A DNA stretch of 64,000 nucleotides, from contig NZ_MVQB01000046.1 of assembly GCF_002067035.1 (NCBI RefSeq), positions 1 through 64,000 of the forward strand. The letters run 5' to 3'. Within the stretch, counting starts at the first letter, position 1; each line of letters opens with the position of its first letter. Under the pieces are notes generated by a model. It had not been told where the DNA came from. It saw only the letters and a list, made by a program, of their open reading frames with translations, and did no database searches. A program made the position numbers and the translations under genes. This document shows positions 18,207 through 63,819 of the stretch, piece after piece. The stretch comes from Methanoregula sp. PtaB.Bin085 (GTDB lineage Archaea; Halobacteriota; Methanomicrobia; Methanomicrobiales; Methanospirillaceae).

Positions 18207-18296
18207 CAGGACACCGGAGAGTGGTTCTTCTCCCTCTTTATCTGTGATGGGATTCGGAGAGAGATTTTCGGCTCTGTAGAAAGCCTTAAAGAAACT

Positions 18297-18464
18297 CTCA
18301 GTGGAATTTATGAAGGTGACCCCCTCTCTTCCCGGAGGGGGAGGCAGCCTGAGGGAGCAAGCCCCCTTGACCCCTTTTTCGAATATTTTATGGATGTCCG
18401 GAAAATGTAATGCTCCACGGGGCGAGGGTCGACAGACCCCGAGCGCCCGTGGCCCCGTCATAAT
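18297..18464 (+). repeat. Dispersed repeat family II, full copy (plus orientation)
   Basis: 168 bases running from CTCAGTGGAATT to GTGGCCCCGTCATAAT. It contains GGTGACCCCCTCTC, a GGAGGGGGAGGCAGCC block, GCAAGCCCCCTTGACCCC, GCTCCACGGGGCGAGGGTC and the palindromic GGTCGACAGACCCCGAGCGCC. The reverse complement of 48011-48177 matches it along the whole length with few gaps, although the AT-rich middle (about 18385-18410) differs. It lies between convergent genes 90 bases past one stop. Confidence 0.8.
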
Positions 18465-22008: not shown

Positions 22009-22093
22009 GGTAATTGAGGTCGCCGCGGGAGCGCCCCCGCGGGGGCGGCGGCAGGCATCACAAAGGGGGTACGGGGGCATCAGCCCCCGTCAG
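22009..22093 (+). repeat. Dispersed GC-rich repeat family I, copy 2
   Basis: Contains ACGGTAATTGAGG, the long palindromic module CGCCGCGGGAGCGCC..GGGGGCGGCGGC and the second hairpin GGGGGCATCAGCCCCC. It is in the orientation of the copies at 24489, 27528 and 38533. Confidence 0.8.
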
Positions 22094-24488: not shown

Positions 24489-24728
24489 AGATGATGGGGC
24501 TCCGCCCCAAACCCCGTAACGATGCCTCCCAGCCTCAGGGCCCCTCGCGGGGCACGGCGGGGCAGGAGCAGGTTCCATGAAAAATGGTATATGAGCCGTC
24601 CTCACTATTGCGCGGGCCGATTACCGTTATCAGGAATTTACACGGTAATTGAAGCCGCCGCGGGGCGCCCTTCGGGGCGGCGGCAGTCCATCGTAACCGG
24701 GGGTATGGGGGCATCAGCCCCCATCATT
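24489..24728 (+). repeat. Dispersed GC-rich repeat family I, copy 3 (both halves)
   Basis: Left half: GATGGGGCTCCGCCCC, CCTCAGGGCCCCTCGCGGGG, CACGGCGGGGCAGGAGCAGG. Right half: ACGGTAATTGAAGCCGCCGC, GGCGCCCTTCGGGGCGGCGG, then TAACCGGGGGTATGGGGGC and ATCAGCCCCCATCATT. About 70 bases of unrelated sequence lie between. It separates hef from glyS, which are on the same strand. Confidence 0.8.
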
Positions 24729-27527: not shown

Positions 27528-27738
27528 ATAATGAGGGCTCCCCGCCTCAGGGCCTCTCCGCGGCGTCGAATCCCACAGGGATTGGACGCGAGAAGAACCT
27601 TTCAGGTTCTTCAAGCCACTGCGGGGCCGGAGCAGGTTCCGAAAAAAACGCTCATTGAAGGCCGCCGCGGGAGCGCCCCCGCGGGGGCGGCGGCACCTGT
27701 CCTGACGGGAGTACGGGGGCATCAGCCCCCGTCATCAG
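27528..27738 (+). repeat. Dispersed GC-rich repeat family I, copy 4, with nested hairpins
   Basis: Left half GATAATAATGAGGGCTCCCC and GCCTCAGGGCC; right half CGCTCATTGAAGGCCGCCGC, GGGAGCGCCCCCGCGGGGGC and GTACGGGGGCATCAGCCCCC. Where other copies have a short CCTCGCGGGGCACGG segment, this one has about 60 bases with two hairpins: GCGTCgAATCCC-aca-GGGATTgGACGC (27563-27589) and GAAGAACCT-ttc-AGGTTCTTC (27592-27612). It lies between two same-strand genes. Confidence 0.8.
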
Positions 27739-36747: not shown

Positions 36748-36995
36748 CGGGAGTGCTCCAGGTTTTACGAAAAACGATACCCGTACTTTTTGGACAGGTT
36801 CCGTGATGCCCCGGGTTCTTTCTAGTATTCTGCAGCACAGGATTATATCTTTGTGATAAGAGACCGGCGCAATCCCTGTCGTTGTACCGGAAACGGATGA
36901 TATTCCCCGTTCATTCCGGCACGCGTACGGCGGCAGAGGGCCGCCATACCGTGTACCTTTTTACCCTCCCCGGCGTTTACTGGTACAGGAACATT

Positions 36996-38288
36996 ATGGC
37001 AATCGACTGGTACAAGGAATTCGTTGACCTGAAGTACGAACCGGCAAAGGACGATATCGTCTGCCTCTTCTATTTCGAACCTGCCGCGGGCGTGAGCGGG
37101 AAGGAAGCGGCCGGCCGGGTTGCGTCCGAGAGCTCGACCGGGACCTGGACCACGCTTTTTAAAATGCCGCCGCGGATGAAGGCGCTGCAGGCCACTGCGT
37201 TCGATATCGAGGGGAACGTGGCGAAGATCGCCTACCCGATCGAGCTCTGGGAGGAGGGCAACGCCGTCCAGCTGATGAGCGGGATCGCCGGCAACATCTT
37301 CGGCATGAAAGCGGTCCGGAACCTCCGGCTCATCGATGCCTCGCTGCCACCGGCCTACCTGAAGCATTTCAAAGGCCCGCACTTCGGCAACGAGGGAATC
37401 CGGAAGATGATGAAGGTCCGCGGCCGGCCATTGACCGGTGCCGTGCCCAAGCCCAAGATCGGGTTTACGGCAAAGGAGCACGCGGAGATCGGGTACGAGA
37501 CCTGGATGGGCGGGTTCGATTTCGTCAAGGATGACGAGAACCTGACCTCCACCACCTTCAACCGTTTCGACGACCGCGTGAAGTTCATGACGAAGCTCCG
37601 CGAGAAGGCGGAGAAGGAGACGGGCGAGGTCAAGTCCGCGTTCCTGAACATCACCGCGGACGTGGAGACGATGAAGAAGCGGGCGGACCTGCTCGCGGCA
37701 AATGGCTGGAACTACTGCATGATCGACGTGGTGGTCGCGGGAACCGCGGCGGTCATGACCATGCGGGACTACTGCTCGGACCTTGGCCTTGCCATCCACG
37801 CTCACCGGGCCATGCACTCGACCTTTACCCGGAACAGGAAGCACGGCATCACGATGCAGTTCCTTGCGAAGATTATGCGCCTTGTCGGCGTCTCCCAGAT
37901 CCATACCGGAACCGCTGTCGGGAAACTGGCCGGCTCCCGGCGCGAATCCGTTGCCCTCGCCGACCTGCTCCGCGAGAAGAAGACGAAGCCGGTCGAGGGC
38001 ATGCTGCTCGGGCAGGACTGGGGGAAGATCAAAACGGCGTTCCCGGTCTCCTCGGGCGGGCTCCACCCGGGTTTGGTGCCGGACGTTATGGACATCTACG
38101 GTCCGGAGATGGTCCTGCTCGTCTCAGGCGGTATCCACGGCCACCCGAAGGGCACCCGCGCCGGCGCGAAGGCAACGATGCAGGCCATCGAGGCCTGGCA
38201 GGAGGGTGTCACGCTCGAGGAGAAGGCGAAGAAGGCAAAAGAGCTGAAAGAAGCCCTCGGCAAGTGGGGGCATTACAAGCCGGTGTGA
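36996..38288 (+). CDS. rbcL: Ribulose-1,5-bisphosphate carboxylase, form III large subunit
   Basis: 430 residues from ATG 36996; the frame continues upstream but only this start gives the family's N-terminus. All catalytic residues are present: Lys152 (TGAVPKPK), the carbamylated Lys178 with Asp180 and Glu181 (FDFVKDDE), His270/Arg271 (IHAHRAMH), loop 6 Lys310 (GTAVGKLAG) and SGGIHGHP. N-terminal SESSTGTW and GNIFG complete the phosphate sites. Archaeal form III enzymes act in AMP salvage or, in Methanomicrobiales with phosphoribulokinase, in the reductive hexulose-phosphate pathway. No partner genes of either route are in this window. Confidence 0.95.
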   Translation: MAIDWYKEFVDLKYEPAKDDIVCLFYFEPAAGVSGKEAAGRVASESSTGTWTTLFKMPPRMKALQATAFDIEGNVAKIAYPIELWEEGNAVQLMSGIAGNIFGMKAVRNLRLIDASLPPAYLKHFKGPHFGNEGIRKMMKVRGRPLTGAVPKPKIGFTAKEHAEIGYETWMGGFDFVKDDENLTSTTFNRFDDRVKFMTKLREKAEKETGEVKSAFLNITADVETMKKRADLLAANGWNYCMIDVVVAGTAAVMTMRDYCSDLGLAIHAHRAMHSTFTRNRKHGITMQFLAKIMRLVGVSQIHTGTAVGKLAGSRRESVALADLLREKKTKPVEGMLLGQDWGKIKTAFPVSSGGLHPGLVPDVMDIYGPEMVLLVSGGIHGHPKGTRAGAKATMQAIEAWQEGVTLEEKAKKAKELKEALGKWGHYKPV

Positions 38289-38532: not shown

Positions 38533-38616
38533 CTCATTGAAGCCGCCACGGGAGCGCCCTTCGGGGCGGCGGCCGTTCATCGTAACCGGGGGTATGGGGG
38601 CATCAGCCCCCATCAG
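38533..38616 (+). repeat. Dispersed GC-rich repeat family I, copy 5
   Basis: CTCATTGAAGCCGCCACGGG, AGCGCCCTTCGGGGCGGCGG, then CGTAACCGGGGGTATGGGGG and CATCAGCCCCCATCAGC. Shortly before it stands CCGAAAAACCG, similar to the flank of copy 4. The gene past it is convergent. Confidence 0.8.
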
Positions 38617-40685: not shown

Positions 40686-40739
40686 TCTCCTGTTTTTCAC
40701 GCTTCGCGTCATCCGCCCGCGGATATTTTACGCAAGACA

Positions 40740-40765
40740 TATAAGTGTATAAGCAAACACTTATA
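40740..40765 (+). promoter_or_regulatory. Promoter/operator of the redox operon: 9-8-9 perfect inverted repeat
   Basis: TATAAGTGT (40740-40748) and ACACTTATA (40757-40765) are exact reverse complements with eight bases between. The left arm overlaps the likely TATA box (CATATAAG, about 40738-40745). The arms end only nine bases before the ATG at 40774. Such a site on the core promoter fits ArsR-type operators, and the first gene encodes an ArsR-type protein, so autorepression is likely (inference). Confidence 0.7.
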
Positions 40766-40773
40766 CAGATTCC

Positions 40774-41691
40774 ATGGACCCCTGCACCAGGTGCGAAGTA
40801 TGCAACAATCTCTGCGAGATCGTGCCGAGGATGGCCGTTACGTTCAAGGCGCTTGGCGATCTTACCCGTCTCCAGATCATCTACCTGCTCTCCACTGATA
40901 CGAGCGGAACGCTCGGCGTGTCAGAGCTCGCGGCCCGGCTGAAGATCTCCCAGCCCGCGGTATCGCAGCACTTAAAGACGCTGAAGACCGAGGGCCTCGT
41001 GGAGTCCCGGCGTGAAGGGTTTTACATCTATTACACAATCAACCGCGAGCGGATGGTGGAGTTCCGTGAGCATTTCGAGCTGATGTACTCGACCGTGATG
41101 GCGAACTGCAGCCGCGAGATGATCCGGAGAAGCACCCGGGACCGGGCCATCAGTGCCTGCGTGATCTTCTACTCGTACTCCGGCATCACCCGCAGCGTTG
41201 CCGAGGGCATCCGCAACGCGAGCGGCTGCGACCTGATCGAGGTGAAGACAAGGGAGCCCTATACGGCCTTCTCTGCGTACACCACCGGTGTCCTGCACTC
41301 GCGCACGGGCACCTGCGACCCCATCGAGCCGGCCGAGATCGATGTCTCGGGCTATGATTTCCTGATCATCGGTACGCCCGTCTGGGCCTGGAAGCCGTCG
41401 CCCGCGATCAATGCGGCAGTTCAGGCCCTCCGGGGCTGCGAGGGGAAGATGGCCGTGATCTTCACGACCTGCTCTACCCAGCCCGGCGAGGCCCTGCCAA
41501 TCCTGAGCAGGGCGCTTGCAGCCCGCGGGGTCCGGGTCATGGCGGAGATCTCGCTCGATGCACAGGACACCAGAAATCCCGATGCGGGGGGAGAGCTCCT
41601 CCGGCAGATCATAGCGGCTGACCCTGTCAGAACCCTTGCGGGCGAGGCCCTGCCGCGGGAACTCGGGAAGAATCAGGAGAAAAAACCATGA
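40774..41691 (+). CDS. ArsR-family repressor fused to a flavodoxin domain
   Basis: 305 residues. Residues 1-20 have a Cys cluster (C4, C7, C10, C14). Residues 20-105 are an ArsR-type winged helix: FKALGDLTRLQIIYLLS, then ELAARLKISQPAVSQHLKTL as recognition helix and SRREGFYIYYTI as wing. After a linker, residues 128-285 are a flavodoxin with the FMN phosphate loop SYSGITRSVAEG and a GTPVWAWKPSPAI loop. A DNA-binding domain joined to a flavin domain suggests a redox- or metal-sensing repressor of the operon it heads. Overlaps the next gene by ATGA. Confidence 0.85.
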   Translation: MDPCTRCEVCNNLCEIVPRMAVTFKALGDLTRLQIIYLLSTDTSGTLGVSELAARLKISQPAVSQHLKTLKTEGLVESRREGFYIYYTINRERMVEFREHFELMYSTVMANCSREMIRRSTRDRAISACVIFYSYSGITRSVAEGIRNASGCDLIEVKTREPYTAFSAYTTGVLHSRTGTCDPIEPAEIDVSGYDFLIIGTPVWAWKPSPAINAAVQALRGCEGKMAVIFTTCSTQPGEALPILSRALAARGVRVMAEISLDAQDTRNPDAGGELLRQIIAADPVRTLAGEALPRELGKNQEKKP

Positions 41692-42173
41692 AGACCAGTA
41701 TTATCTACAACTCGTATTCCGGGAACACCCGCGGCGTGGCAGAGAAGGTCCAGGCAGCCTGCGGGGGAACGCTTGTCGAAGTGAAATCGAAGCAGTACTC
41801 ATCGAAGCTCGCGGTATACACCCTCGGGTGTTACCGGGCAATGAAGGAGATGAGCGACCCGATCGAACCGGAGCGGATCGATGTAACGTCCGACGACGTG
41901 ATTGTCATCGGGACCCCGATCTGGGCCGGGAAAGCAACCCCGGCCGTCAACGCGGCCATTGCGTCCCTGCAGGGCTGCGCCGGGAAGAAGGCCATCATCT
42001 TTGCCACCTGCGGCAAGGAGGGGAAGGACGCCCTCGCCATCCTCCGGACGGCGCTCGGGGCGAGAGGCGTGACCGTTGCCGGCGAGTTCGTGTTCGACAA
42101 GGATGGCATGAAGGACCCGGCACGGATCGATGCCATGATCGCGGCGGTGAAAACCGCAGGAGGATCCCCGTGA
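41688..42173 (+). CDS. Flavodoxin
   Basis: 161 residues, short-chain flavodoxin. The phosphate loop is NSYSGNTRGVAEKVQ (near residue 8) and the isoalloxazine loops include GTPIWAGKATPAVNA and FATCGKEGKD. It is clearly related to the flavodoxin domain of the preceding fusion protein (VYTLGCYRAMKEMSDPIEPERIDV matches its AYTTGVLHSRTGTCDPIEPAEIDV in pieces), so it arose by duplication. It presumably carries electrons for enzymes of the operon. Stop overlaps the next GTG start. Confidence 0.9.
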   Translation: MKTSIIYNSYSGNTRGVAEKVQAACGGTLVEVKSKQYSSKLAVYTLGCYRAMKEMSDPIEPERIDVTSDDVIVIGTPIWAGKATPAVNAAIASLQGCAGKKAIIFATCGKEGKDALAILRTALGARGVTVAGEFVFDKDGMKDPARIDAMIAAVKTAGGSP

Positions 42174-42973
42174 AGACTGTCATCTATTCCTTTTCCGGCA
42201 CCGGCAACTCCCTTGCCGCTGCAAAGAAGATCGCGGCAGCGCTGGGGGAGACGGAGCTGGTGCCGATCGCATCGCTGGAGGACACTGCAGGATCTGTACT
42301 GCCAGCAGCGGAACGGATCGGCATCGTCTGCCCGGTCTATTTCTCCGGGCTCCCCCTGATGGTGGCATCGTTCGCGGAGCGGCTGGAGCCCGGATCGGCA
42401 CAGTACCTGTTTGCAGTCCTGACCCATGGAGGCGGCGGGGAGTCTGCTGCGCTCCGCCAGCTCGACAGCATTCTCCGGCAGCGGAAGGGCAGGGGGCTGG
42501 ACGCAGGCTTCGGGGTGATGATGCCCGGGAATTACATCATGATGTACGAGTCCCCCATGGGACAGAAGCAGCAGGAGATCCTGGCAAAGGCGGATGAAGA
42601 AATTGCGGCAATCGCCGCATCGGTATCCCGGATGGAGAAGGTTGCCCTCCCGTCATCGCTGATCAACCGGATCCTGTACATGCTGATCTACCCGTGGTTC
42701 AGGTCCCATGCCCGCACCGATGACAAAAAGTTCTCCGTAACCGACGCGTGTATCTCCTGCGGAACCTGCGTGGAGGTCTGCCCGGCGAAGAACATCGGAC
42801 TCGTGGACAAAAAACCGGTCTGGAAGCACCGCTGCGAGCTCTGCTGCAGCTGCATCCACACCTGCCCGGTGAAGGCAATCCAGGCCGGGGCGAGGACAGA
42901 GAAATGGGGAAGGTACCGCAACCCTGACGTCACGGTTGCAGAGCTGAAGATGCAGAAGAAGGACACGTCATGA
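42170..42973 (+). CDS. EFR1-type flavodoxin/ferredoxin protein, copy 1
   Basis: 267 residues, starting at GTG (42170) after GGAGG and overlapping the flavodoxin stop. Residues 1-150 form a flavodoxin-like domain with the loop SFSGTGNSLAAAKKIA. Residues 180-250 hold two 4Fe-4S motifs, CISCGTCVEVCP and CELCCSCIHTCP. Such EFR1-type proteins are intracellular electron carriers that join flavin and ferredoxin chemistry. Closely related to the next gene, so the pair is a tandem duplication. Confidence 0.88.
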   Translation: MKTVIYSFSGTGNSLAAAKKIAAALGETELVPIASLEDTAGSVLPAAERIGIVCPVYFSGLPLMVASFAERLEPGSAQYLFAVLTHGGGGESAALRQLDSILRQRKGRGLDAGFGVMMPGNYIMMYESPMGQKQQEILAKADEEIAAIAASVSRMEKVALPSSLINRILYMLIYPWFRSHARTDDKKFSVTDACISCGTCVEVCPAKNIGLVDKKPVWKHRCELCCSCIHTCPVKAIQAGARTEKWGRYRNPDVTVAELKMQKKDTS

Positions 42974-43788
42974 AGACCGTCATCTATTACTTCACCGGCA
43001 CCGGCAACTCGCTTGCCGCTGCACGGAAGATTGCCGCAGCGCTGAAGGACTGCGATCTGGTGCCGATCGCATCGCTGAAAGATACACCGGGAACGATCGT
43101 CCCGGCAGCAGACCGGGCCGGGATCGTCTGCCCGGTGTACGATGCCGGCCTTCCCGTGATCGTGAAGGAGTTCGCGGAACGTCTGGACATCGGGGCCGTG
43201 CCCTATGCATTCGCCATTGTTACCATGGGTGGTATGGGTGTCTCCGCCCTCCACCAGCTCAATACCATTCTCGTGCAGGGCTGCCGCAAAAAGCTCGATG
43301 CGGCATTTGCGGTGAGCATGCCCGGCAACTTCCCGCCGCTCGCGATCCCTCCGGCGGGAGAGAAGAAGGATGAGATCCTCCGGAAAGCCGATGCCGATCT
43401 TGCAGCAATTGCTGTCGCGATACAAAAGGGGCAGCCCGTGCCGCCCGGCTTCTCCCCCTTCTCTTCGCTGATGAGGATCCTCCTCTACCCGCCGTTTGCA
43501 CGGAACGTTCACGGGATGTCGTCGTCCTTCTCCGTTGAGGATACCTGCACCGGTTGCGGCACCTGCGCAAAGGTCTGCCCGGTGAAGAACATCGTGATGG
43601 AGAAGGACCGGCCGGTCTGGCAGCAGACGTGCGAGCTCTGCTGCGCCTGCCTCCACTTCTGCCCGGCCGAGGCAATCCAGCTCAGTCTCATGCGGGGCTC
43701 GAAGGGCAGGGGACGGTACCGTCACCCGGACCTCACGATTGACGACATGAAAGCTCAGCGCGGGGAGAAATCCGGCACAACACCCTGA
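42970..43788 (+). CDS. EFR1-type flavodoxin/ferredoxin protein, copy 2
   Basis: 272 residues. Flavodoxin-like half with YFTGTGNSLAAARKIAAAL; ferredoxin half with CTGCGTCAKVCPVKNIV and CELCCACLHFCPAEAI. Its start overlaps the previous stop (ATGA). It matches copy 1 over much of its length, including the conserved YYFTGTGNSLAAA start and the WxxxCELCC spacing. Followed 11 bases later by the first membrane ferredoxin gene. Confidence 0.88.
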   Translation: MKTVIYYFTGTGNSLAAARKIAAALKDCDLVPIASLKDTPGTIVPAADRAGIVCPVYDAGLPVIVKEFAERLDIGAVPYAFAIVTMGGMGVSALHQLNTILVQGCRKKLDAAFAVSMPGNFPPLAIPPAGEKKDEILRKADADLAAIAVAIQKGQPVPPGFSPFSSLMRILLYPPFARNVHGMSSSFSVEDTCTGCGTCAKVCPVKNIVMEKDRPVWQQTCELCCACLHFCPAEAIQLSLMRGSKGRGRYRHPDLTIDDMKAQRGEKSGTTP

Positions 43789-43799
43789 AGGAGATTACC

Positions 43800-44558
43800 A
43801 TGACAGAAACACCTGAAAATAAAACCGTATCGTCCCGGCAGACCCTCCGGAAATGGATCCTGATCATATCCTTCCTGCTCCTGCCGGTCACGCTTGTTTA
43901 TATCTCGCCGCTCGTCATCATGATGGGGGCAGTGCAGGGGGTAGCAACCGGCAGCATGCTCCTCTTCATTGCTAACTTCATTCTCTCGCTCGTTGTCGCC
44001 CGGCTCTGGTGCGGCTGGTTCTGCCCGATGGGGGCATGGCAGGAGATCTGCTCACCGGTCTTCAAAAATACCGTGCAGGAAGGCTGGCGCAATAATGTCA
44101 AGTACGTGATAACCGTTGTCTGGCTGGCCGTGCTCGCGTATTTCTTCATCGGTGCCGGCGGGATCCGATCGATCGATCCCTTCTTCGGCACGCAGAACGG
44201 CCTCTCGATCACGTCCCTTGCACCCCTGATCGTGGTCATCGTCATCTTCACGATCATGTTCGTTATTGCATACCTGATGGGCCGGCGCGGCTTCTGCCAT
44301 GTCTTCTGCCCGGTGGCGTCCCTCCTTGTCCTTGGCCGGAAGATCCGTAACGCCATGGGCTGGCCGGCGCTGCAGCTCTCTGCCGATGCATCCCGCTGCA
44401 TCGACTGCAAAAAATGCTCGAAGGAATGCCCGATGGGCCTTGACGTGAACGGCATGGTACGGAAGAACGAGATGGAAAATCCCGACTGTATCATGTGTGC
44501 CAGCTGTGCCGACATATGCCCGAAGGGTGCGATTACGTACGGTATCGGGGGCCGGTAA
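43800..44558 (+). CDS. NapH-like 4Fe-4S membrane protein, copy 1
   Basis: 252 residues, starting after AAGGAGAT. Four to five membrane helices carry the PF12801-type motifs WCGWFCPMGAWQEIC and GFCHVFCPVAS, each with a Cys pair near the membrane. Two ferredoxin motifs follow at the C-terminus: CIDCKKCSKECPMGLDV and CIMCASCADICPKGAI. Such proteins move electrons between quinone or membrane carriers and soluble ferredoxins in nitrate, RnfC-like or regulatory systems. Next gene is its paralogue. Confidence 0.88.
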   Translation: MTETPENKTVSSRQTLRKWILIISFLLLPVTLVYISPLVIMMGAVQGVATGSMLLFIANFILSLVVARLWCGWFCPMGAWQEICSPVFKNTVQEGWRNNVKYVITVVWLAVLAYFFIGAGGIRSIDPFFGTQNGLSITSLAPLIVVIVIFTIMFVIAYLMGRRGFCHVFCPVASLLVLGRKIRNAMGWPALQLSADASRCIDCKKCSKECPMGLDVNGMVRKNEMENPDCIMCASCADICPKGAITYGIGGR

Positions 44559-44591
44559 GCGGCCTGACCGGCACCGCAGGAAAATCATGGT

Positions 44592-45392
44592 ATGAGCCCG
44601 GAATCTTTGGAACGCACAATACCGGAAGAAGCGGCACGCATGCCGGCATCCCGGCAGCAGGCCCGGCGTGCACTCATCATCCTCTCGTTCATCCTGTATC
44701 CGGTAACCTTTGCCTATGTCTCGTGCCCGATCATCACAGAGGCGGCGGGGCTCGGGATCGTGAGCGGGGGTCTCATTGTCTTCTGCCTGCTCTTCATCAG
44801 TTCGCTCGTGCTCGGACGGCTCTGGTGCGGGTACCTCTGCCCTGCCGGGGGCCTGCAGGAAGCCTGCAATATTGTCCTCAGGTGGCCCCTCCGGACGAAG
44901 AGACTGGACTGGCTGAAGTACCTTGTCTTCCTCGGGATCTTCGGCAGCATTGCACTAGCGATCTGGTCTGCCGGCGGCCTGAAGACAGTCGACTTCCTGT
45001 ACCGGACACAGAACGGCATCTCAATCCTGGCCGCGGGAGGAGTCGCCCTGTTCCTCGGGCCGGTCCTGATCACCCTGCTATTCACGTTGATCTTTGGCAA
45101 ACGCGGGTTCTGCCATACCTTCTGCCCGATCGCGGTGATGCTGATGATCGGCCGGAAGATCCGGAACATTTTCCGGTGGCCGGCGCTGCACCTGGAAGCA
45201 GACAAGGACCACTGTACCGGCTGCATGGAATGCTCGGAGGAATGCCCCATGAGCCTTGACGTGAACGGGATGGTACGGGAGGGTCGGATGGAGCAGGCAG
45301 ACTGTATCCTCTGCGGCGCCTGCGTGGATATCTGCCCGAAGAATACGATTGTATACGCATGGTCAGAGAACCGATCAGGAAGGACAGCATGA
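44592..45392 (+). CDS. NapH-like 4Fe-4S membrane protein, copy 2
   Basis: 266 residues, with the same layout as copy 1: WCGYLCPAGGLQEAC, GFCHTFCPIAV, then CTGCMECSEECPMSLDV and CILCGACVDICPKNTI. The identical spacing of all Cys motifs shows recent duplication. The membrane part has five helices. Its stop overlaps the next start (ATGA). Confidence 0.88.
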   Translation: MSPESLERTIPEEAARMPASRQQARRALIILSFILYPVTFAYVSCPIITEAAGLGIVSGGLIVFCLLFISSLVLGRLWCGYLCPAGGLQEACNIVLRWPLRTKRLDWLKYLVFLGIFGSIALAIWSAGGLKTVDFLYRTQNGISILAAGGVALFLGPVLITLLFTLIFGKRGFCHTFCPIAVMLMIGRKIRNIFRWPALHLEADKDHCTGCMECSEECPMSLDVNGMVREGRMEQADCILCGACVDICPKNTIVYAWSENRSGRTA

Positions 45393-46186
45393 AGACCGTT
45401 ATTTATTACTTCACCGGCACCGGCAACACCCTTGCCATTGTCCGGGATCTGGCGGCGGAACTGGGCGATTCGGAACTCGTCCCGGTTCCGGAGATGATGC
45501 GCCGGCAGGAGATCGCGTGCGATGCGGACGCTGTCGGGATCGCGTTCCCGGTCTACTTCCTGGACCTGCCGGAGATCGTGGAGGGATTTGTACGGAAACT
45601 CCGGTTCACCGGCAGGTCGTACATCTTCGGCATTGCCACCTGCGGCGAGCGGCCGGGCGGGGCCCTCTTCTCCCTGCAGGCGCTGCTTGAGGAGAAGGGG
45701 CAGGCCCTTGCATCCGGGTTTGTCTTTGTCATGCCGGAGAACTTCATCGGGCCTGTCGATCTCATGGGCGACGCTCCTCACCGGCAGGACAAGTATGCCG
45801 CTGCACGGGGCCGTATTGCTCCTGTTGCAGCAATGATCCGGGAACGTAAACAGAGCCTGCCGGAAGGAAACCCGTCCGCGATCCTGCGGATCGGCGGGAA
45901 GATCACGAGATCACTTGCGACAACGCTCTACAACACCCCCCGGCACCTCCGCGCAACCTGCCGGTGCAACCACTGCCGGACCTGCGAACGGATCTGCCCC
46001 GCGCGGAACATCGTGGTGGAGAAGGATGCCGTCATCTTCGGGAACTCCTGCACCCAGTGCTATGCCTGCATCCACTGGTGCCCGCAGGGTGCGATCGAGA
46101 TCGGCAGGAGAACGGCCGGAAAGCCGCGGTACCACCACCCGGATGTGACCCTTGCCGACATGCTCCGCCAGCGGGGGGATGCATGA
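45389..46186 (+). CDS. EFR1-type flavodoxin/ferredoxin protein, copy 3
   Basis: 265 residues. Begins YYFTGTGNTLAIVRDLAAEL, more divergent than copies 1 and 2. Cluster motifs are CNHCRTCERICPARNIV and CTQCYACIHWCPQGAIE. The flavodoxin part keeps the phosphate loop and the FPVYFLDLP segment. Overlaps both neighbours by ATGA, which suggests fixed stoichiometry with the following membrane protein and radical SAM enzyme. Confidence 0.87.
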   Translation: MKTVIYYFTGTGNTLAIVRDLAAELGDSELVPVPEMMRRQEIACDADAVGIAFPVYFLDLPEIVEGFVRKLRFTGRSYIFGIATCGERPGGALFSLQALLEEKGQALASGFVFVMPENFIGPVDLMGDAPHRQDKYAAARGRIAPVAAMIRERKQSLPEGNPSAILRIGGKITRSLATTLYNTPRHLRATCRCNHCRTCERICPARNIVVEKDAVIFGNSCTQCYACIHWCPQGAIEIGRRTAGKPRYHHPDVTLADMLRQRGDA

Positions 46187-46791
46187 CGGAATCCTGCGAT
46201 CCCGCATCGTTTCCCCGCCGGCTCTCCCGCGAAATCTGCCGGAGGGCGACTGCCGGAGCCGTTGCCGGATCCTTCGGGCTCTGGATCATCGTCCTGTCCC
46301 TCATCAACGGCAAACCGTTCGGGCTTGCCAGGCTGCAGGAGATTACGGGCGGCCCCTCGATCCTTGACATGACCTTCACGACGGGGCCGGACAGCGTGTA
46401 TGCAGTCCTCGATGCCCTTGGCGATGCCGGCCGGGCGTTCGATCTGACGCATATCGTGCCGCTCGATCTCGTCTTCCCGTTCACATACGGCCTCTTCCTC
46501 GCGCTCGGCATTTCGTGGGGTCTCGTGCGGCTTCTCCCGGAAGGCAGCCCGTGGCTCCTGCTGAACCTTGCGCCGGTGATTGCCGCGGCAGCGGACTACT
46601 GCGAGAACGCCGGGGTCATCGCGCTTCTCCTCACGTACCCCGCACGGCTCGATCCCGCTGCGTGGTTCGTGAGCATCATGTATATTATCAAGTCCGGGTT
46701 CTCGGCCGTGAGTTTCCTTACCCTGATTGCAGCACTGGCCGGCGTTGCCGTCATGTCCCTGCTACACCGGCTTGGCAGGAGTCCTGCATGA
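46183..46791 (+). CDS. Four-helix membrane protein of the redox operon
   Basis: 202 residues with membrane segments at about 20-40, 90-115, 120-150 and 160-195 (SFGLWIIVLSL, LVFPFTYGLFLALGIS, VIAAAADYCENAGVIALLL, FSAVSFLTLIAALAGVAVM). A charged loop between the first two includes DLTHIVPLDL. One Cys in the third segment is the only redox-type residue. I do not recognise a family. Overlaps both neighbours by ATGA, so it belongs to the pathway. Confidence 0.75.
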   Translation: MTESCDPASFPRRLSREICRRATAGAVAGSFGLWIIVLSLINGKPFGLARLQEITGGPSILDMTFTTGPDSVYAVLDALGDAGRAFDLTHIVPLDLVFPFTYGLFLALGISWGLVRLLPEGSPWLLLNLAPVIAAAADYCENAGVIALLLTYPARLDPAAWFVSIMYIIKSGFSAVSFLTLIAALAGVAVMSLLHRLGRSPA

Positions 46792-47894
46792 CAACCGGCG
46801 GGTCAGCACCGGTGGAGACGGGCACGTCGTACCGCGACACTTTCAACACCACGATAGCAGAGACGATCGCACAGGCTGTCCGGATCATCGGGCAGGACCC
46901 GGCGCTGCTCATTCCCGGCTCGGTCATCCTCCACCACCAGAGGAAAGCGGCCGCGATACGGAAACGTCACGAGCAGCAGGGGCTCATCGTCCCGCCGGTC
47001 ATGATCCTCAGCATCACCTCGCGCTGCAACCTTGCCTGCGCCGGCTGCTACATGCATGGCAGGGGGGAGAAGCCGGCCGCGGAGATGAGCCCGGCAGTCC
47101 TTGCATCCGCTGGTGCCCAGGCCGCGGAGCTCGGCGTATCGATCATCGTGATCGCCGGCGGAGAACCGCTCGTCCGGCAGGAAGAGATCCTTGCGCTGGC
47201 AAAAGCCCATCCACGGGTACTCTTCCCGGTCTTTTCAAACGGTCTTCTGATCGACGATGCGATGGCAACAGCGATCGCAGGGTGCCGGAACATCGTGCCG
47301 GTCATCAGCTTCGAGGGATTCCGGGAGGACACCGACCGGCGCCGTGGCCACGGCGTTTTCGACCGGCTCCTCGCGGCTGCTGCCCGGCTGAAGGCACGGG
47401 ACGTCTTCTTCGGCTGCTCGGTCACGACAACGCGGGAGAACTTCCCGCGGGTGACGGACGAAGTGTTTATCCGGGAGATGCTGAAGGCCGGTGTCCGGGT
47501 CTTCACGTATGTCGAGTACGTTCCGATGCGGGACGGGACGGAAGGACTCGTCATGGCGCACGAACAGAAGAAGACCCTGCAGGTCGTGCTTGCGGACTTC
47601 AACCGGAAATTCCCGGCGCTCTTCATCGGCTTCCCCGGCGACGAGGACACGTACGGCGGGTGCCTTGCCGCGGGCCGGGGCTTCGTGCACGTCAGCCCGT
47701 CCGGCGATCTTGAGCCCTGCCCGGCAGCGCCATTTTCCGACGCAAACCTCACGAAGGTTCCGCTCGCGGAAGCGCTCCGCTCCCGGCTGCTCGGCCGGCT
47801 CCGCGAAACGCCGGAGGTTCTTGCGGAGACGGAAGGAGGCTGCGCTCTCCGGGCGAACCGGGCATGGGCAGAGGGACTGGTGGGCCGGGAGTGA
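46788..47894 (+). CDS. Radical SAM enzyme
   Basis: 368 residues. The SAM cluster motif CNLACAGC (Cys80, Cys84, Cys87) opens a partial TIM barrel, with a GGEPLVR motif (about 125-131) and FSNGLLI and SFEGFREDTDRRRGHG typical of the SPASM/Twitch-like subgroup. A C-terminal part has Cys residues around GGCLAAGRGF and LEPCPAAPF that may bind an extra cluster. The substrate is unknown. As last gene of the operon, with a flavodoxin at hand for reduction, it is the likely catalytic output. Confidence 0.88.
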   Translation: MTTGGSAPVETGTSYRDTFNTTIAETIAQAVRIIGQDPALLIPGSVILHHQRKAAAIRKRHEQQGLIVPPVMILSITSRCNLACAGCYMHGRGEKPAAEMSPAVLASAGAQAAELGVSIIVIAGGEPLVRQEEILALAKAHPRVLFPVFSNGLLIDDAMATAIAGCRNIVPVISFEGFREDTDRRRGHGVFDRLLAAAARLKARDVFFGCSVTTTRENFPRVTDEVFIREMLKAGVRVFTYVEYVPMRDGTEGLVMAHEQKKTLQVVLADFNRKFPALFIGFPGDEDTYGGCLAAGRGFVHVSPSGDLEPCPAAPFSDANLTKVPLAEALRSRLLGRLRETPEVLAETEGGCALRANRAWAEGLVGRE

Positions 47895-48237
47895 TGGGGG
47901 GATAGCGATTTACCGGTTTTCTGGAGAACTACAGGACGTTTTCACACAACGGGGGGCGTCGCATTACCTGAAAAAATTATTAAGCAGAAACCTGATGGGG
48001 ATAGTATTGGATTGTGATGGAGCCACGGGCGCTCGGGGTCTGCCGACCCTCGCCCCGTGGAGCATGGTCGTATATGGGGCATGAAAAAAATCGAAAATGG
48101 GGGTCAAGGGGGCTTGCCCCCTTGGGCTGCCTCCCCCTCTGGGGGAGAGAGGGGGTCACCCTCACAATTCCACTGAGTGTGTTATGGAGTGGTTTCTCCA
48201 GAGCAGAAAAATTATCATTCGAGAGTTGAGGTAAACC
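47895..48237. other. Intergenic region dominated by a repeat of family II
   Basis: About 340 bases between same-strand genes. The repeat copy at 48011-48177 takes up half; the remainder is AT-rich and holds no gene. It should include the terminator of the redox operon and the promoter of the following flavodoxin gene. Confidence 0.5.
48011..48177 (-). repeat. Dispersed repeat family II, full copy (minus orientation)
   Basis: 167 bases. On the minus strand it reads from CTCAGTGGAATT through GGTGACCCCCTCTC, GCAAGCCCCCTTGACCCC and GCTCCACGGGGCGAGGGTC to CCCGTGGCTCCATCACAAT, mirroring 18297-18464. Orientation is opposite to that copy. It lies between two same-strand genes. Confidence 0.8.
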
Positions 48238-48759
48238 ATGAATCAACCTGAAAATAATCCGGAAACTCCACAATCGGTAAAATCACTCGTGATCGTGTTC
48301 TCATACCATCACGGGAACACGGAGAAGATAGCACGAACGATGGCGAATGTCCTTGATGCAGAAGTAAAAACACCGGACCAGGTTTTCCCGGAAAAACTCC
48401 GGGAGTACGACCTGATCGGGTTCGGCTCGGGGATTTACAGCGCGACCTTCGGCCCGGCAATCCTCACTCTTGCCGACCGGCTTTCCTCTGCTGCAGGGAA
48501 GAAGGCCTTTCTCTTTTCGACCTACGGGGCACCGGCATTTGCGGTAACCCGGAGTTTCGTTGCAGACAACCACGCAGAGATGCGGGAAAAGCTGCAGCTG
48601 AAGGGGTACACGGTCATTGGTGAATTCGGCTGTGCCGGGTGGAACACGAACAGTTTCCTGAAATATTTCGGCGGAATCAACAGGGGACGGCCGGATGCGG
48701 ACGACCTGCGGAATGCGGAGATGTTCGCCCGGGAGATGCTGAAAAAAGCCCGCGGGTGA
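48238..48759 (+). CDS. Flavodoxin family protein
   Basis: 173 residues. FMN-binding loop FSYHHGNTEKIARTM near residue 20, then GFGSGIYSATFGPAIL and FSTYGAPAFA loops. A short hydrophilic N-terminus (about 15 residues) precedes the domain. It differs from the flavodoxin of the operon upstream and is separated from it by a repeat, so membership in the same transcript is doubtful. The start has GAGGTAA upstream. Confidence 0.88.
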   Translation: MNQPENNPETPQSVKSLVIVFSYHHGNTEKIARTMANVLDAEVKTPDQVFPEKLREYDLIGFGSGIYSATFGPAILTLADRLSSAAGKKAFLFSTYGAPAFAVTRSFVADNHAEMREKLQLKGYTVIGEFGCAGWNTNSFLKYFGGINRGRPDADDLRNAEMFAREMLKKARG

Positions 48760-54264: not shown

Positions 54265-54419
54265 GATGGGGGCTGATGCCCCCATACCCCAATTATGATG
54301 TGTGCCGCCGCCCCCGCGGGGGCGCTCCCGCGGCGGCCTTTAATTACCGGTTTCCCGGGACCTGCTCTGGCCCCGCCGTGCCCCGTGAGGGGCCCTCAGG
54401 CGGGGAGCCCTCATAATCA
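54265..54419 (-). repeat. Dispersed GC-rich repeat family I, copy 6
   Basis: Complete copy in inverted orientation: GATGGGGGCTGATGCCCCCA, then GCCGCCGCCCCCGCGGGGGC with GCTCCCGCGGCGGCC, TTACCGGTTTCCCGGGACC, TGCTCTGGCCCCGCCGTGCC, CCGTGAGGGGCCCTCAGGCG and GGGAGCCCTCATAATCA. It lies between convergent genes, 61 bases past the Yip1-like stop. It shows all modules in one place and is the best reference copy. Confidence 0.85.
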
Positions 54420-59900: not shown

Positions 59901-61484
59901 ATGATCACGAATGATAAACAGCCATTAAGCCTGCGTGACGGGAACTTCACGTACAGCCTCGTTGGTCCGCTCGTGCTCGCGTTCCCGTGTACACCGGTGC
60001 TGGGTGCTTGCACTTTTAACTGCTCATATCCATACGGTGCAACCCTCTACGCTGGTGATACAATTACCTGTTCATGGACCGACTGCGGAACGTGGAACAA
60101 ATACATTGAAAAAGGCAGCTCGATTTGTGGCTCGTCTGGGAATGATATGTGTTATATTGGCGGTGGAGCTAATGGGGGCGGTTCTTGCGTTGTGACGGAG
60201 AGGTATTATATTTTTACAGCTCTCCGTTTGACGAAAGGTACCTACCCGACCAACTGGTGCTGGTATTGGGGAAACGGCACCCGCCCGCGACCTGTTGCCA
60301 ATTTCACCGCGTCCCCCACTTCCGGCACCGCACCGCTGATTGTCCAGTTCAACGATACCAGTAACACGACACCACAATCATGGTACTGGGAATTCGGGAA
60401 CGGAAATACCTCAGCAGAACGGAACGTGACTTTCACCTACACGCAGCCTGGGATATATTCGGTCAGCCATTCTGCATCCAACAGCGGTGGGACATCATGG
60501 AAGAATGTTACCGATTTGATAATCGTCACCTCTCCGGTCCGAGCAGATTTCTATGCCTTTCCCACATCCGGCCCCGCCCCGCTGAACGTCACCTTCAACG
60601 ACACCTCCACCGGCACTATAACCGACTGGTCCTGGTCCTTTGGCGATGGCAACACCTCCACCGACCAGAACCCGTCGCACACCTACGAGGCGGCGGGGAA
60701 TTACACCGTGAACCTGACGGCGGCGAACGCGGCGGGGAGCAACACGACGGTGAAGGAGGGGTACATCAGCGTGACGGAGCCGGCGCAGATTGCGCGGACG
60801 TATTCGATAACAGTTGGTGAAAAATATCGTAATCCGAACGATCCGTATCAAGACCCATGGAATTTGTCATTTAGTGGGACTGAGACTGGCGATAATGTTG
60901 CATCGATTTTAAATTCTGCCGGATGGAGTCAACAATTCTATGATAAAGATCTAGATGTAACAGAAGAAGACTTTGGAACGACAGGGAATGGTTTAGACAA
61001 TTCTGTATTGCATTATCATTTTGGTCATGGAAATGAAACCAAAGGGATTGCATTAATCAAACTCAATCACCTCGGACTTTATCCAATTATGCCTTATGAT
61101 TATTTGAGTGCGTCTCAGGTTCATAAAAAATGGGGGAACCAGAATAAGTGGGTTATTCTCGATAGTTGTTTATTACTATCAAATGCATCTTGGGGAGATG
61201 CATTAGAAACATCGCATGGAATTTTGGGATTCGCCTCTTCGAAAAATCCGAATAGTCAATTACCGGTGAGATTCTTCCATTATGCAATGGAGGAAAACAG
61301 GACTGTTGAGAATGCTTGGAGAGCGGCCACTACCGAGGTATACGCCGGTACAAACACTATTGCTGCATATCGATTTGATAACGTATCTCAAAAAGACCAT
61401 GACCACTTGCCCGGTCATGGTGAAATATGGCCCGATGAAAATCCGGATGATGGATTATCTGAATACGACCAGTGGACTTGTTAG
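59901..61484 (+). CDS. Exported PKD-domain protein with caspase-like C-terminal domain
   Basis: 527 residues. The N-terminus is a weak signal-like stretch (LVGPLVLAFPCTPVLGAC near 20-38). A Cys-rich segment (about 36-100) follows, then two PKD domains (about 130-215 and 217-298). The C-terminal domain (about 300-520) has HYHFGHGNE with His376 and WVILDSCLLL with Cys423. A His-Gly and Cys 47 residues apart is the arrangement of clan CD peptidases (caspase, gingipain, CHAT-like); it also resembles DUF6345. Peptidase activity is inferred. A stop codon in frame just upstream of 59889 fixes the start region. Confidence 0.75.
   Translation: MITNDKQPLSLRDGNFTYSLVGPLVLAFPCTPVLGACTFNCSYPYGATLYAGDTITCSWTDCGTWNKYIEKGSSICGSSGNDMCYIGGGANGGGSCVVTERYYIFTALRLTKGTYPTNWCWYWGNGTRPRPVANFTASPTSGTAPLIVQFNDTSNTTPQSWYWEFGNGNTSAERNVTFTYTQPGIYSVSHSASNSGGTSWKNVTDLIIVTSPVRADFYAFPTSGPAPLNVTFNDTSTGTITDWSWSFGDGNTSTDQNPSHTYEAAGNYTVNLTAANAAGSNTTVKEGYISVTEPAQIARTYSITVGEKYRNPNDPYQDPWNLSFSGTETGDNVASILNSAGWSQQFYDKDLDVTEEDFGTTGNGLDNSVLHYHFGHGNETKGIALIKLNHLGLYPIMPYDYLSASQVHKKWGNQNKWVILDSCLLLSNASWGDALETSHGILGFASSKNPNSQLPVRFFHYAMEENRTVENAWRAATTEVYAGTNTIAAYRFDNVSQKDHDHLPGHGEIWPDENPDDGLSEYDQWTC
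60566..60767 (+). repeat. 202-base PKD-encoding repeat, copy A
   Basis: Encodes most of the second PKD domain. It aligns without gaps to 62673-62874, with about 13 differences in 202 bases by my count. It is GC-rich inside AT-rich surroundings. The extent runs from ATCCGGCCCCGCCCC to GTACATC. Confidence 0.85.
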
Positions 61485-62649: not shown

Positions 62650-62664
62650 TCATTTTTTCCTGCC

Positions 62665-63819
62665 ATGTCCCGATCCGGCCCCGCCCCACTCGCGGTGACC
62701 TTCACCGACACCTCCACCGGTACGATAACCGACAGGTCCTGGTCCTTTGGCGATGGCAACACCTCCACCGACCAGAACCCGTCGCACATCTACGTGGCGG
62801 CGGGGAATTACACAGTGAACCTGACGGCGGCGAACGCGGCGGGGAGCAACACGACGGTGAAGGAGGGGTACATCCAAGTTGAAGGCAGCGGACCGGTTGT
62901 GGATTTTACGGCAACACCCGTGAACGGTCCTGCACCACTGACCGTGCAGTTCGCAGATTTTTCGGTTAAGGACCCGATATCCTGGTCTTGGGATTTTGGC
63001 GATGATACGCATTCAACTACCCAGAATCCATTACATATATATTGGAATCCCGGAATTTATACCGTGAACCTCTCAGTAACCAATGCAAGTGGGAGCAACA
63101 CAACTTCGAAAGAGAATTTCGTGACCGTGGCAGTGGCGGTTTATAACGCTAGTAATTATGACTTTAATATTGAGAATGAACCTGAGGTTGCTAACGATAT
63201 CCGCACATCTGATATAGCATCAATAGCAGGTCAATACCAATCAACTCTTGGATATAATGAAAATTCATATACAAATTCAAATGTATCATTCGCTTTTGAA
63301 CGAATGAAAAATGACCAGATTTTTTATTTCGCTGGACATGGTTCCGCAGGGCTTATTGATTTCGGAAATCGTGATGGTACTTGTGGATTAATCAGTGCGA
63401 ATTTTGGTCAATGTGGTAAAAGGATTTTAAACATGAATAATGGTGAACTAGATGATCTTCTGTTAGCAGTTTATTCCGGATGTGAAACTGGAAATACATC
63501 CAACCCTATTACTGGTGATTTGATTCAAACTTCCATTGATAAAGGTGTTGATACCGCAATAGGTTTCAGAGATGATGTTTTGGATAATCAACAGAGAACA
63601 TGGGGAGGATATTTTTGGTATTACCTTCTCGATCAGAAAGTTCCGGTAATAAGTGCAGCCACTTTAGCTCGGGTTTCAACTATTAATTATTGGGGTGATG
63701 CCGGGGGCATGGATTCGTACCGTATTGAGGGAGATCAAAACCTTGTCATAGATTACGCGAAATCTGGAACAACACCAACTCCTACACCTACAGTATCACC
63801 AACAGAAGGGGGCAGCTGA
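62665..63819 (+). CDS. PKD-domain protein with caspase-like domain, lacking its own start signals
   Basis: 384 residues. Two PKD domains (1-72, first one lacking its usual start, and about 75-155) are followed by a domain with FYFAGHGSAG (His225) and LLAVYSGCETG (Cys273), 48 residues apart, as in clan CD peptidases. A Thr/Pro tail ends the protein. There is no signal peptide and no ribosome binding site before ATG 62665. The frame is the same as that of the preceding gene, with TAA 15 bases upstream. It may be a fragment of a broken longer gene, or be read by suppression; as an independent gene it is doubtful. Confidence 0.65.
   Translation: MSRSGPAPLAVTFTDTSTGTITDRSWSFGDGNTSTDQNPSHIYVAAGNYTVNLTAANAAGSNTTVKEGYIQVEGSGPVVDFTATPVNGPAPLTVQFADFSVKDPISWSWDFGDDTHSTTQNPLHIYWNPGIYTVNLSVTNASGSNTTSKENFVTVAVAVYNASNYDFNIENEPEVANDIRTSDIASIAGQYQSTLGYNENSYTNSNVSFAFERMKNDQIFYFAGHGSAGLIDFGNRDGTCGLISANFGQCGKRILNMNNGELDDLLLAVYSGCETGNTSNPITGDLIQTSIDKGVDTAIGFRDDVLDNQQRTWGGYFWYYLLDQKVPVISAATLARVSTINYWGDAGGMDSYRIEGDQNLVIDYAKSGTTPTPTPTVSPTEGGS
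62673..62874 (+). repeat. 202-base PKD-encoding repeat, copy B
   Basis: Matches 60566-60767 without gaps at about 93-94% identity by eye. It is the beginning of the third gene of the PKD cluster. The start of the repeat, just after the doubtful ATG, is where homology to a complete PKD domain begins to fail upstream. Confidence 0.85.

Follow-up and report, generated by a model that had tools for sequence, protein, structure and literature searches.

An ArsR-flavodoxin fusion heads a recurring and very probably autoregulated electron-carrier operon in Methanomicrobiales

A stretch of 64,000 nucleotides (nt) from Methanoregula sp. PtaB.Bin085 (contig NZ_MVQB01000046.1, positions 1 to 64,000; hereafter the window) contains a nine-gene operon whose first gene encodes an ArsR-type DNA-binding domain fused to a flavodoxin. 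The fusion locus is real, recurs in other genomes, and is very probably autoregulated. No description of an ArsR-flavodoxin fusion or of the operon was found in the literature searched, most subscription journals lying outside the search. It is rather probable that the locus represents an auto-repressed electron-transfer operon, in which the fusion would read the carrier pool via flavin mononucleotide (FMN) and control carrier synthesis. More tentatively, and with somewhat less confidence than would make it the expected outcome, the fusion may be a repressor with a complete flavodoxin sensor, in which the redox state of FMN, set by the low-potential carriers of the cell, would switch both DNA binding and carrier supply in Methanomicrobiales.

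Both domains of gene 1 scored above their Pfam cut-offs, with HTH_5/ArsR at residues 31-78 (55 vs 22 bits) and Flavodoxin_4 at residues 130-234 (38.8 vs 24 bits), in agreement with the original prediction that an ArsR-flavodoxin fusion heads the operon. The protein also passed the NCBIfam family HTH_metalloreg NF033788 (84.7 vs 55 bits). According to the AlphaFold2 model, the ArsR winged helix continues into a long C-terminal helix (residues 91-121) and is joined to a flavodoxin fold by a linker predicted with low confidence. Solved structures matching the DNA-binding half were ArsR repressors, including 6J05, CzrA, and SqrR, and the best matches of the flavodoxin half were FMN-bound flavodoxins (e.g. 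3EDO); fold and sequence matching against the PDB yielded no chain covering both halves of the fusion.

Full-length fusions were found in at least 26 genomes, and every one of them belongs to the Methanomicrobiales. Comparison of 150 genomes of the order revealed 18 genomes besides the window's own that carry a full-length fusion; they are distributed across four families under the taxonomy used, and their fusions have intact frames and 45-79% identity. Among 393 sampled genomes of the phylum, full-length matches occurred in the order only. Furthermore, a scan in which each GTDB species was represented by one genome yielded at least 12 named matches spanning both halves, all Methanomicrobiales (listed as Methanoregula, Methanoregulaceae, Methanospirillaceae, Methanospirillum stamsii, Methanoculleus, and other Methanomicrobiales); among the matches listed, none spanning both halves came from bacteria, and in one (L068) the two halves are separate adjacent genes. 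A fusion found only once was originally held to speak against a defined system; the fusion was instead detected in many genomes, and its neighbourhood recurs too. Because both recur, the fusion and its neighbourhood are not a product of chance.

In a maximum-likelihood tree, the flavodoxin halves from 19 fusions grouped together on a single branch (support 99/97), apart from the gene-2 flavodoxins and from lone flavodoxins, indicating a single origin for the flavodoxin half of the fusion. ArsR and flavodoxin genes that are neighbouring but separate occur in two genomes (L050 and L068); these were rejected as a simple pre-fusion state, as the flavodoxins concerned group among the other lone ones.

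Upstream of the fusion, the order of elements is ATATAAGT-GTATAAGCAAACACTTATAC-N7-ATG. A 20-mer operator, the dyad GTATAAG-N6-CTTATAC in consensus, lies 5-9 nt 5' of the start codon in all 25 promoters compared. Across these promoters most columns of the arms reach or approach 2 bits and the TATA core holds approximately 2 bits per column, while positions further upstream mostly hold 0-0.5 bits. Four arm pairs (A-T, A-T, T-A, and A-T) are symmetric in every one of the 25. No second operator was detected in the window itself at one mismatch (window shuffles yielded zero sites) or in the window's genome at three mismatches, and on the latter result a regulon extending beyond the operon was dropped; genus relatives with an operator match have one site each.

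The genus g16, for which the nearest named records are Methanoculleus, includes 13 genomes without the fusion gene at this place, which retain the TATA element CGCAAAGTCCATATC (or near copies) with EFR1/NapH genes after it. In these fusion-less genomes the operator sequence agrees with the 20-mer at 10-15 of 20 positions and keeps 1-4 of the 7 dyad pairs, compared with 17-20 positions and 4-7 pairs in four genomes that carry both the fusion and an element of this kind (Mann-Whitney p=0.002, kinship uncorrected). In the simplest reading, the fusion-less operons would constitute a natural regulator-loss experiment, in which the fusion keeps the dyad and its loss leads to decay. Autoregulation is strongly supported because the conserved dyad operator decays where the fusion is missing, and the fusion very probably regulates its own operon. 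The self-regulation originally proposed is thus upheld by the 25 promoters and by the fusion-less genomes alike. The location of the site, past the TATA element and ahead of the start codon, argues for repression over activation.

The operon consists of nine open reading frames at 40774-47894, all on the + strand and free of internal stops. Genes overlap by 4 nt at six of the eight junctions, whereas genes 5 and 6 are set off from the genes before them by 11 and 33 nt. Gene number, order, strand, coordinates, family labels, and the six overlaps all agree with the original prediction, which did not include the promoter and operator (40739-40766) and ended at 47894. The module reaches past that point to a flavodoxin gene, FldX (48238-48759), which is counted as a member because it adjoins or sits within the operon in relatives (18 nt after the radical SAM gene in L035, inside the operon in L036 and L037). 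In the window, a repeat of approximately 190 bp lies between FldX and the radical SAM gene, and the module comprises ten genes:

40739..40746, + strand: promoter TATA-like element ATATAAGT, directly adjoining the operator; conserved over 25 promoters
40747..40766, + strand: dyad operator GTATAAG-CAAACA-CTTATAC, 7 nt 5' of the ATG; 25/25 promoters
40774..41691, + strand: gene 1, ArsR/SmtB winged helix (residues ~20-112) and flavodoxin domain (~126-284), proposed autorepressor
41688..42173, + strand: gene 2, stand-alone flavodoxin (Fld), kin of the flavodoxin half of gene 1
42170..42973, + strand: gene 3, EFR1a, EFR1-type flavodoxin-ferredoxin with a GTG start (NF038196, 249.6 bits)
42970..43788, + strand: gene 4, EFR1b, EFR1-type flavodoxin-ferredoxin, tandem paralogue of EFR1a
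43800..44558, + strand: gene 5, NapH-like membrane polyferredoxin 1 (Fer4_5, two 4Fe-4S motifs)
44592..45392, + strand: gene 6, NapH-like membrane polyferredoxin 2, paralogue of gene 5 (Fer4_5)
45389..46186, + strand: gene 7, EFR1c, EFR1-type flavodoxin-ferredoxin (NF038196)
46183..46791, + strand: gene 8, four-helix membrane protein (TM4) assigned to no known family or fold; probable partner of NapH
46788..47894, + strand: gene 9, radical SAM enzyme (PF04055), accessory and not core
48010..48200, no strand given: dispersed intergenic repeat between the radical SAM and FldX genes, 46 matches in the genome
48238..48759, + strand: FldX, flavodoxin, tenth member of the module

Locus content was counted over 22 loci, the window included, each of which has 7 kb or more of downstream sequence. 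EFR1 was present in all 22 fusion loci, a NapH-like gene in 16, a radical SAM gene in 15, the four-helix protein in 11, the gene-2 flavodoxin in 10, and FldX, in or directly after the operon, in 8 (window included). The invariant core is the fusion plus EFR1, with NapH and radical SAM optional. Three loci have an FMN-reductase-like protein; an FMN-reductase/iron-sulfur-flavoprotein-like gene (MKILVIMGSPRKGNT...) is inserted at L031:7490-8305, L038:5455-6258, and L039:7663-8445 (operon-strand coordinates). In three Methanoculleus-type loci (L043, L047, and L066), EFR1, NapH, or four-helix genes look broken or frame-shifted, reflecting either module decay or assembly errors.

The EFR1 genes of the window (genes 3, 4, and 7) scored 249.6, 225.1, and 225.9 bits for NF038196, for which the cut-off is 75. 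They are mutual paralogues, as are the two NapH-like genes, and EFR1a and EFR1b share 76% DNA identity over 217 nt. Genes 5 and 6 each encode four hydrophobic segments, two CxxxCP motifs, and two 4Fe-4S motifs; both are above the Pfam cut-off for Fer4_5 and below that of the NapH/MauN family TIGR02163 (61.2 and 64.6 bits vs 213), and hence are termed NapH-like only. A third NapH-like gene of the window's genome (G000 contig C53:38211-38948, L235) lies outside EFR1 clusters, and solitary NapH-like genes were also present in other families of the phylum (L225-L238). Gene 8 had no Pfam match, its fold search gave no PDB match at E<=0.001, and its model is a helix bundle. The four-helix protein was found in 11 of the 16 loci with NapH and in none of the six without (p=0.012, kinship uncorrected); since it occurs only in loci with NapH, it is a probable NapH partner.

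Inferred from these comparisons, a homodimer of the fusion would bind the single dyad operator that separates the TATA element from the start codon and, while bound, would block initiation of its own operon, a step for which genome comparison supplies the operator and its loss together with the fusion. Judging from the protein families, the operon would make soluble low-potential carriers, namely EFR1 flavodoxin-ferredoxins and flavodoxins, to which most species would add NapH-like membrane polyferredoxins and their presumed four-helix partner, and together these carriers may link the cytosolic pool and the membrane by electron transfer. The fusion would sense the state of this pool via the FMN of its flavodoxin domain, possibly aided by Cys112. 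Control of DNA binding by flavin redox state is plausible: with reduced flavin the fusion would stay on DNA, and with oxidised or absent flavin it would be released and the carriers made, the direction of this switch being uncertain.

Conserved residues bear on the proposed sensing element. The FMN phosphate loop S-x-[ST]-G-x-T is kept in all 26 fusions, as is Cys112, located at the end of the long helix, which is predicted to serve in dimerisation. An N-terminal four-cysteine motif, CxxCxxCxxxC, is present in 17 fusions and lost in 9, and for this reason was dropped as an obligatory Fe-S or metal sensor. FMN, perhaps with Cys112, is favoured as the sensing element because the loop and Cys112 are invariant, the four-cysteine motif is not, and the fold is that of FMN-bound flavodoxins. 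Alternatively, the protein could be a conventional autorepressor of the ArsR family, responding to metals, persulfide, or the oxidation of thiols by way of Cys112 and of CxxCxxCxxxC in those fusions that have it, with the flavodoxin attached as an electron carrier only. The invariance of Cys112, the HTH_metalloreg score, the SqrR fold match, and the existence of thiol-responsive ArsR proteins in bacteria (such as Paracoccus ArsR, PMC9137774) are consistent with such a sensor; however, the four-cysteine motif was lost in 9 of 26 fusions and the flavodoxin loop never, and no gene for the transport of metals or arsenic was recognised among those that recur, leaving this explanation unlikely. A role in arsenic detoxification was dropped, no ars-type genes being recognised in the recurring neighbourhoods.

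Less probable still is a sensor of carrier load, in which the flavodoxin half, behaving like any flavodoxin, docks on its EFR1 or NapH partners and gauges carrier amount or reduction, the signal being either protein contact or reduction of the fusion by the carriers. Such docking would suit EFR1 as the sole gene always found with the fusion, and the related flavodoxins of genes 1 and 2 could compete for one partner.

Gene 9 was assigned to Radical_SAM PF04055 (56.6 vs 29.5 bits) and has an invariant CxxxCxxC motif at C80/C84/C87 and three invariant cysteines near the C-terminus (C292, C311, and C352). None of the 25 NCBIfam families listed reached its cut-off; NirJ, AhbC, and AhbD (heme d1/heme b), MoaA, PqqE, and the mycofactocin maturases were accordingly rejected, the best score being 65.3 bits vs 515 (NirJ). 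In the original prediction the locus looked like a complete electron path with a radical SAM output; on this reading it would be a biosynthetic or modification pathway, with the other genes as electron supply for the radical SAM enzyme. Radical SAM enzymes need low-potential electrons, and the gene is present in all seven loci of the window's genus that were compared at length (the window, L031, L032, L033, L035, L036, and L037). However, it is missing from 7 of the 22 fusion loci, and a phylum search at E<=1e-60 listed no relative for the fusion-bearing genomes G047, G058, G068, and G076. Relatives in other families of the phylum had no EFR1 or NapH neighbours and stand alone or beside a TetR-like gene, which precedes the relative in L170, L178, and L181 (TetR as read from sequence). 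Because the gene is missing from loci and genomes with the fusion and has relatives elsewhere without EFR1 or NapH, the radical SAM enzyme is not an obligate output. With NapH likewise missing in six loci, a complete path to a radical SAM output is not supported as what defines the system, and a pathway of this kind is improbable; the enzyme may be a clade-specific client or passenger.

Several observations weigh against the preferred reading, that of an auto-repressed carrier operon whose repressor senses through FMN. Carrier genes differ widely in order and number from locus to locus, so that a fixed electron path is not indicated, and the absence of NapH from 6 of 22 loci implies that the membrane link is not essential. 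In the structural model, linker residues 114-124 have a predicted local distance difference test score (pLDDT) <50, the predicted template modelling score (pTM) is 0.50, and no coupling between the halves is seen. The most divergent fusion, L048 (Methanospirillum stamsii), which was not among the 25 promoters, has an upstream dyad that is only loosely similar. Finally, sequence alone does not tell repression from activation.

Among characterised regulators, MsvR is the closest analogue in behaviour. MsvR is a homodimeric autorepressor of methanogens with redox-dependent binding, which represses its own promoter via an inverted repeat near the B recognition element (BRE)/TATA and the start site; in M. 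acetivorans, the start site lies 8 nt 5' of the ATG (PMC3729527). Both proteins combine an N-terminal DNA-binding domain with a C-terminal domain, which is redox-responsive in MsvR. However, MsvR senses through a V4R domain, which has three conserved cysteines, and the fusion would do so through a flavodoxin, and the MsvR operator is TTCGTA-N4-TACGAA, in contrast to the dyad found here. Gene 1 has no V4R domain; the window's genome has V4R matches on contigs C24 and C48, away from the locus. The fusion shares a winged-helix fold, family score, and dyad over its own promoter with ArsR/SmtB repressors (CzrA, SmtB, SqrR, and Paracoccus ArsR), but these are stand-alone domains of ~100-120 residues, to which the fusion adds a whole flavodoxin. 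Similarly, the Flavodoxin_4 FMN flavodoxins 3EDO, 3KLB, and 4ICI share its fold and phosphate-binding loop but stand alone, without a DNA-binding domain, and have ~21% identity to the fusion. NapH-like proteins are modular membrane electron carriers with varied redox partners (eLife 2021, PMC8238504); the locus resembles NapH-like systems in its Fer4_5 membrane proteins with 4Fe-4S clusters, but no FMN-binding or ApbE partner was recognised at the locus, where the neighbours are EFR1 and flavodoxins. The fusion may represent a variant of the ArsR-type redox autorepressor, new as far as the literature search reached.

Other features were observed in the window. A RuBisCO-like large-subunit gene, named by sequence inspection, is located upstream of the operon (36882-38288), and is also upstream of the fusion operon in L031, L032, L033, L034, and L037, probably as synteny only. 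The ~190 bp intergenic repeat was also found at 18294-18464 on the minus strand; some contigs have several copies, and parts of it read as short false open reading frames (MEPRALGVCRPSPRGA...). A second dispersed repeat family, GC-rich (GGAGCGCCC...GGGGGCATCAGCCCCC) and intergenic on both strands, has copies at 22017-22092, 24662-24726, 27659-27734, 38551-38615, and 54265-54353. A 214-nt direct repeat (92%) at 60554-60767 and 62661-62874 sits among genes of low third-position GC with SFGDGNTS-type repeats.

How strict anaerobes gauge the reduction of their ferredoxin/flavodoxin pool is poorly known, and MsvR, the studied redox regulator of methanogens, acts through cysteines. If the proposed reading is true, a repressor that carries its own flavodoxin would monitor the electron carriers directly. 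The locus is well suited to testing this, with one operator of known sequence, a regulator encoded by a single gene, and natural genomes lacking both. Furthermore, it defines an EFR1-NapH carrier module, hitherto unstudied, together with an unnamed membrane protein tied to NapH.

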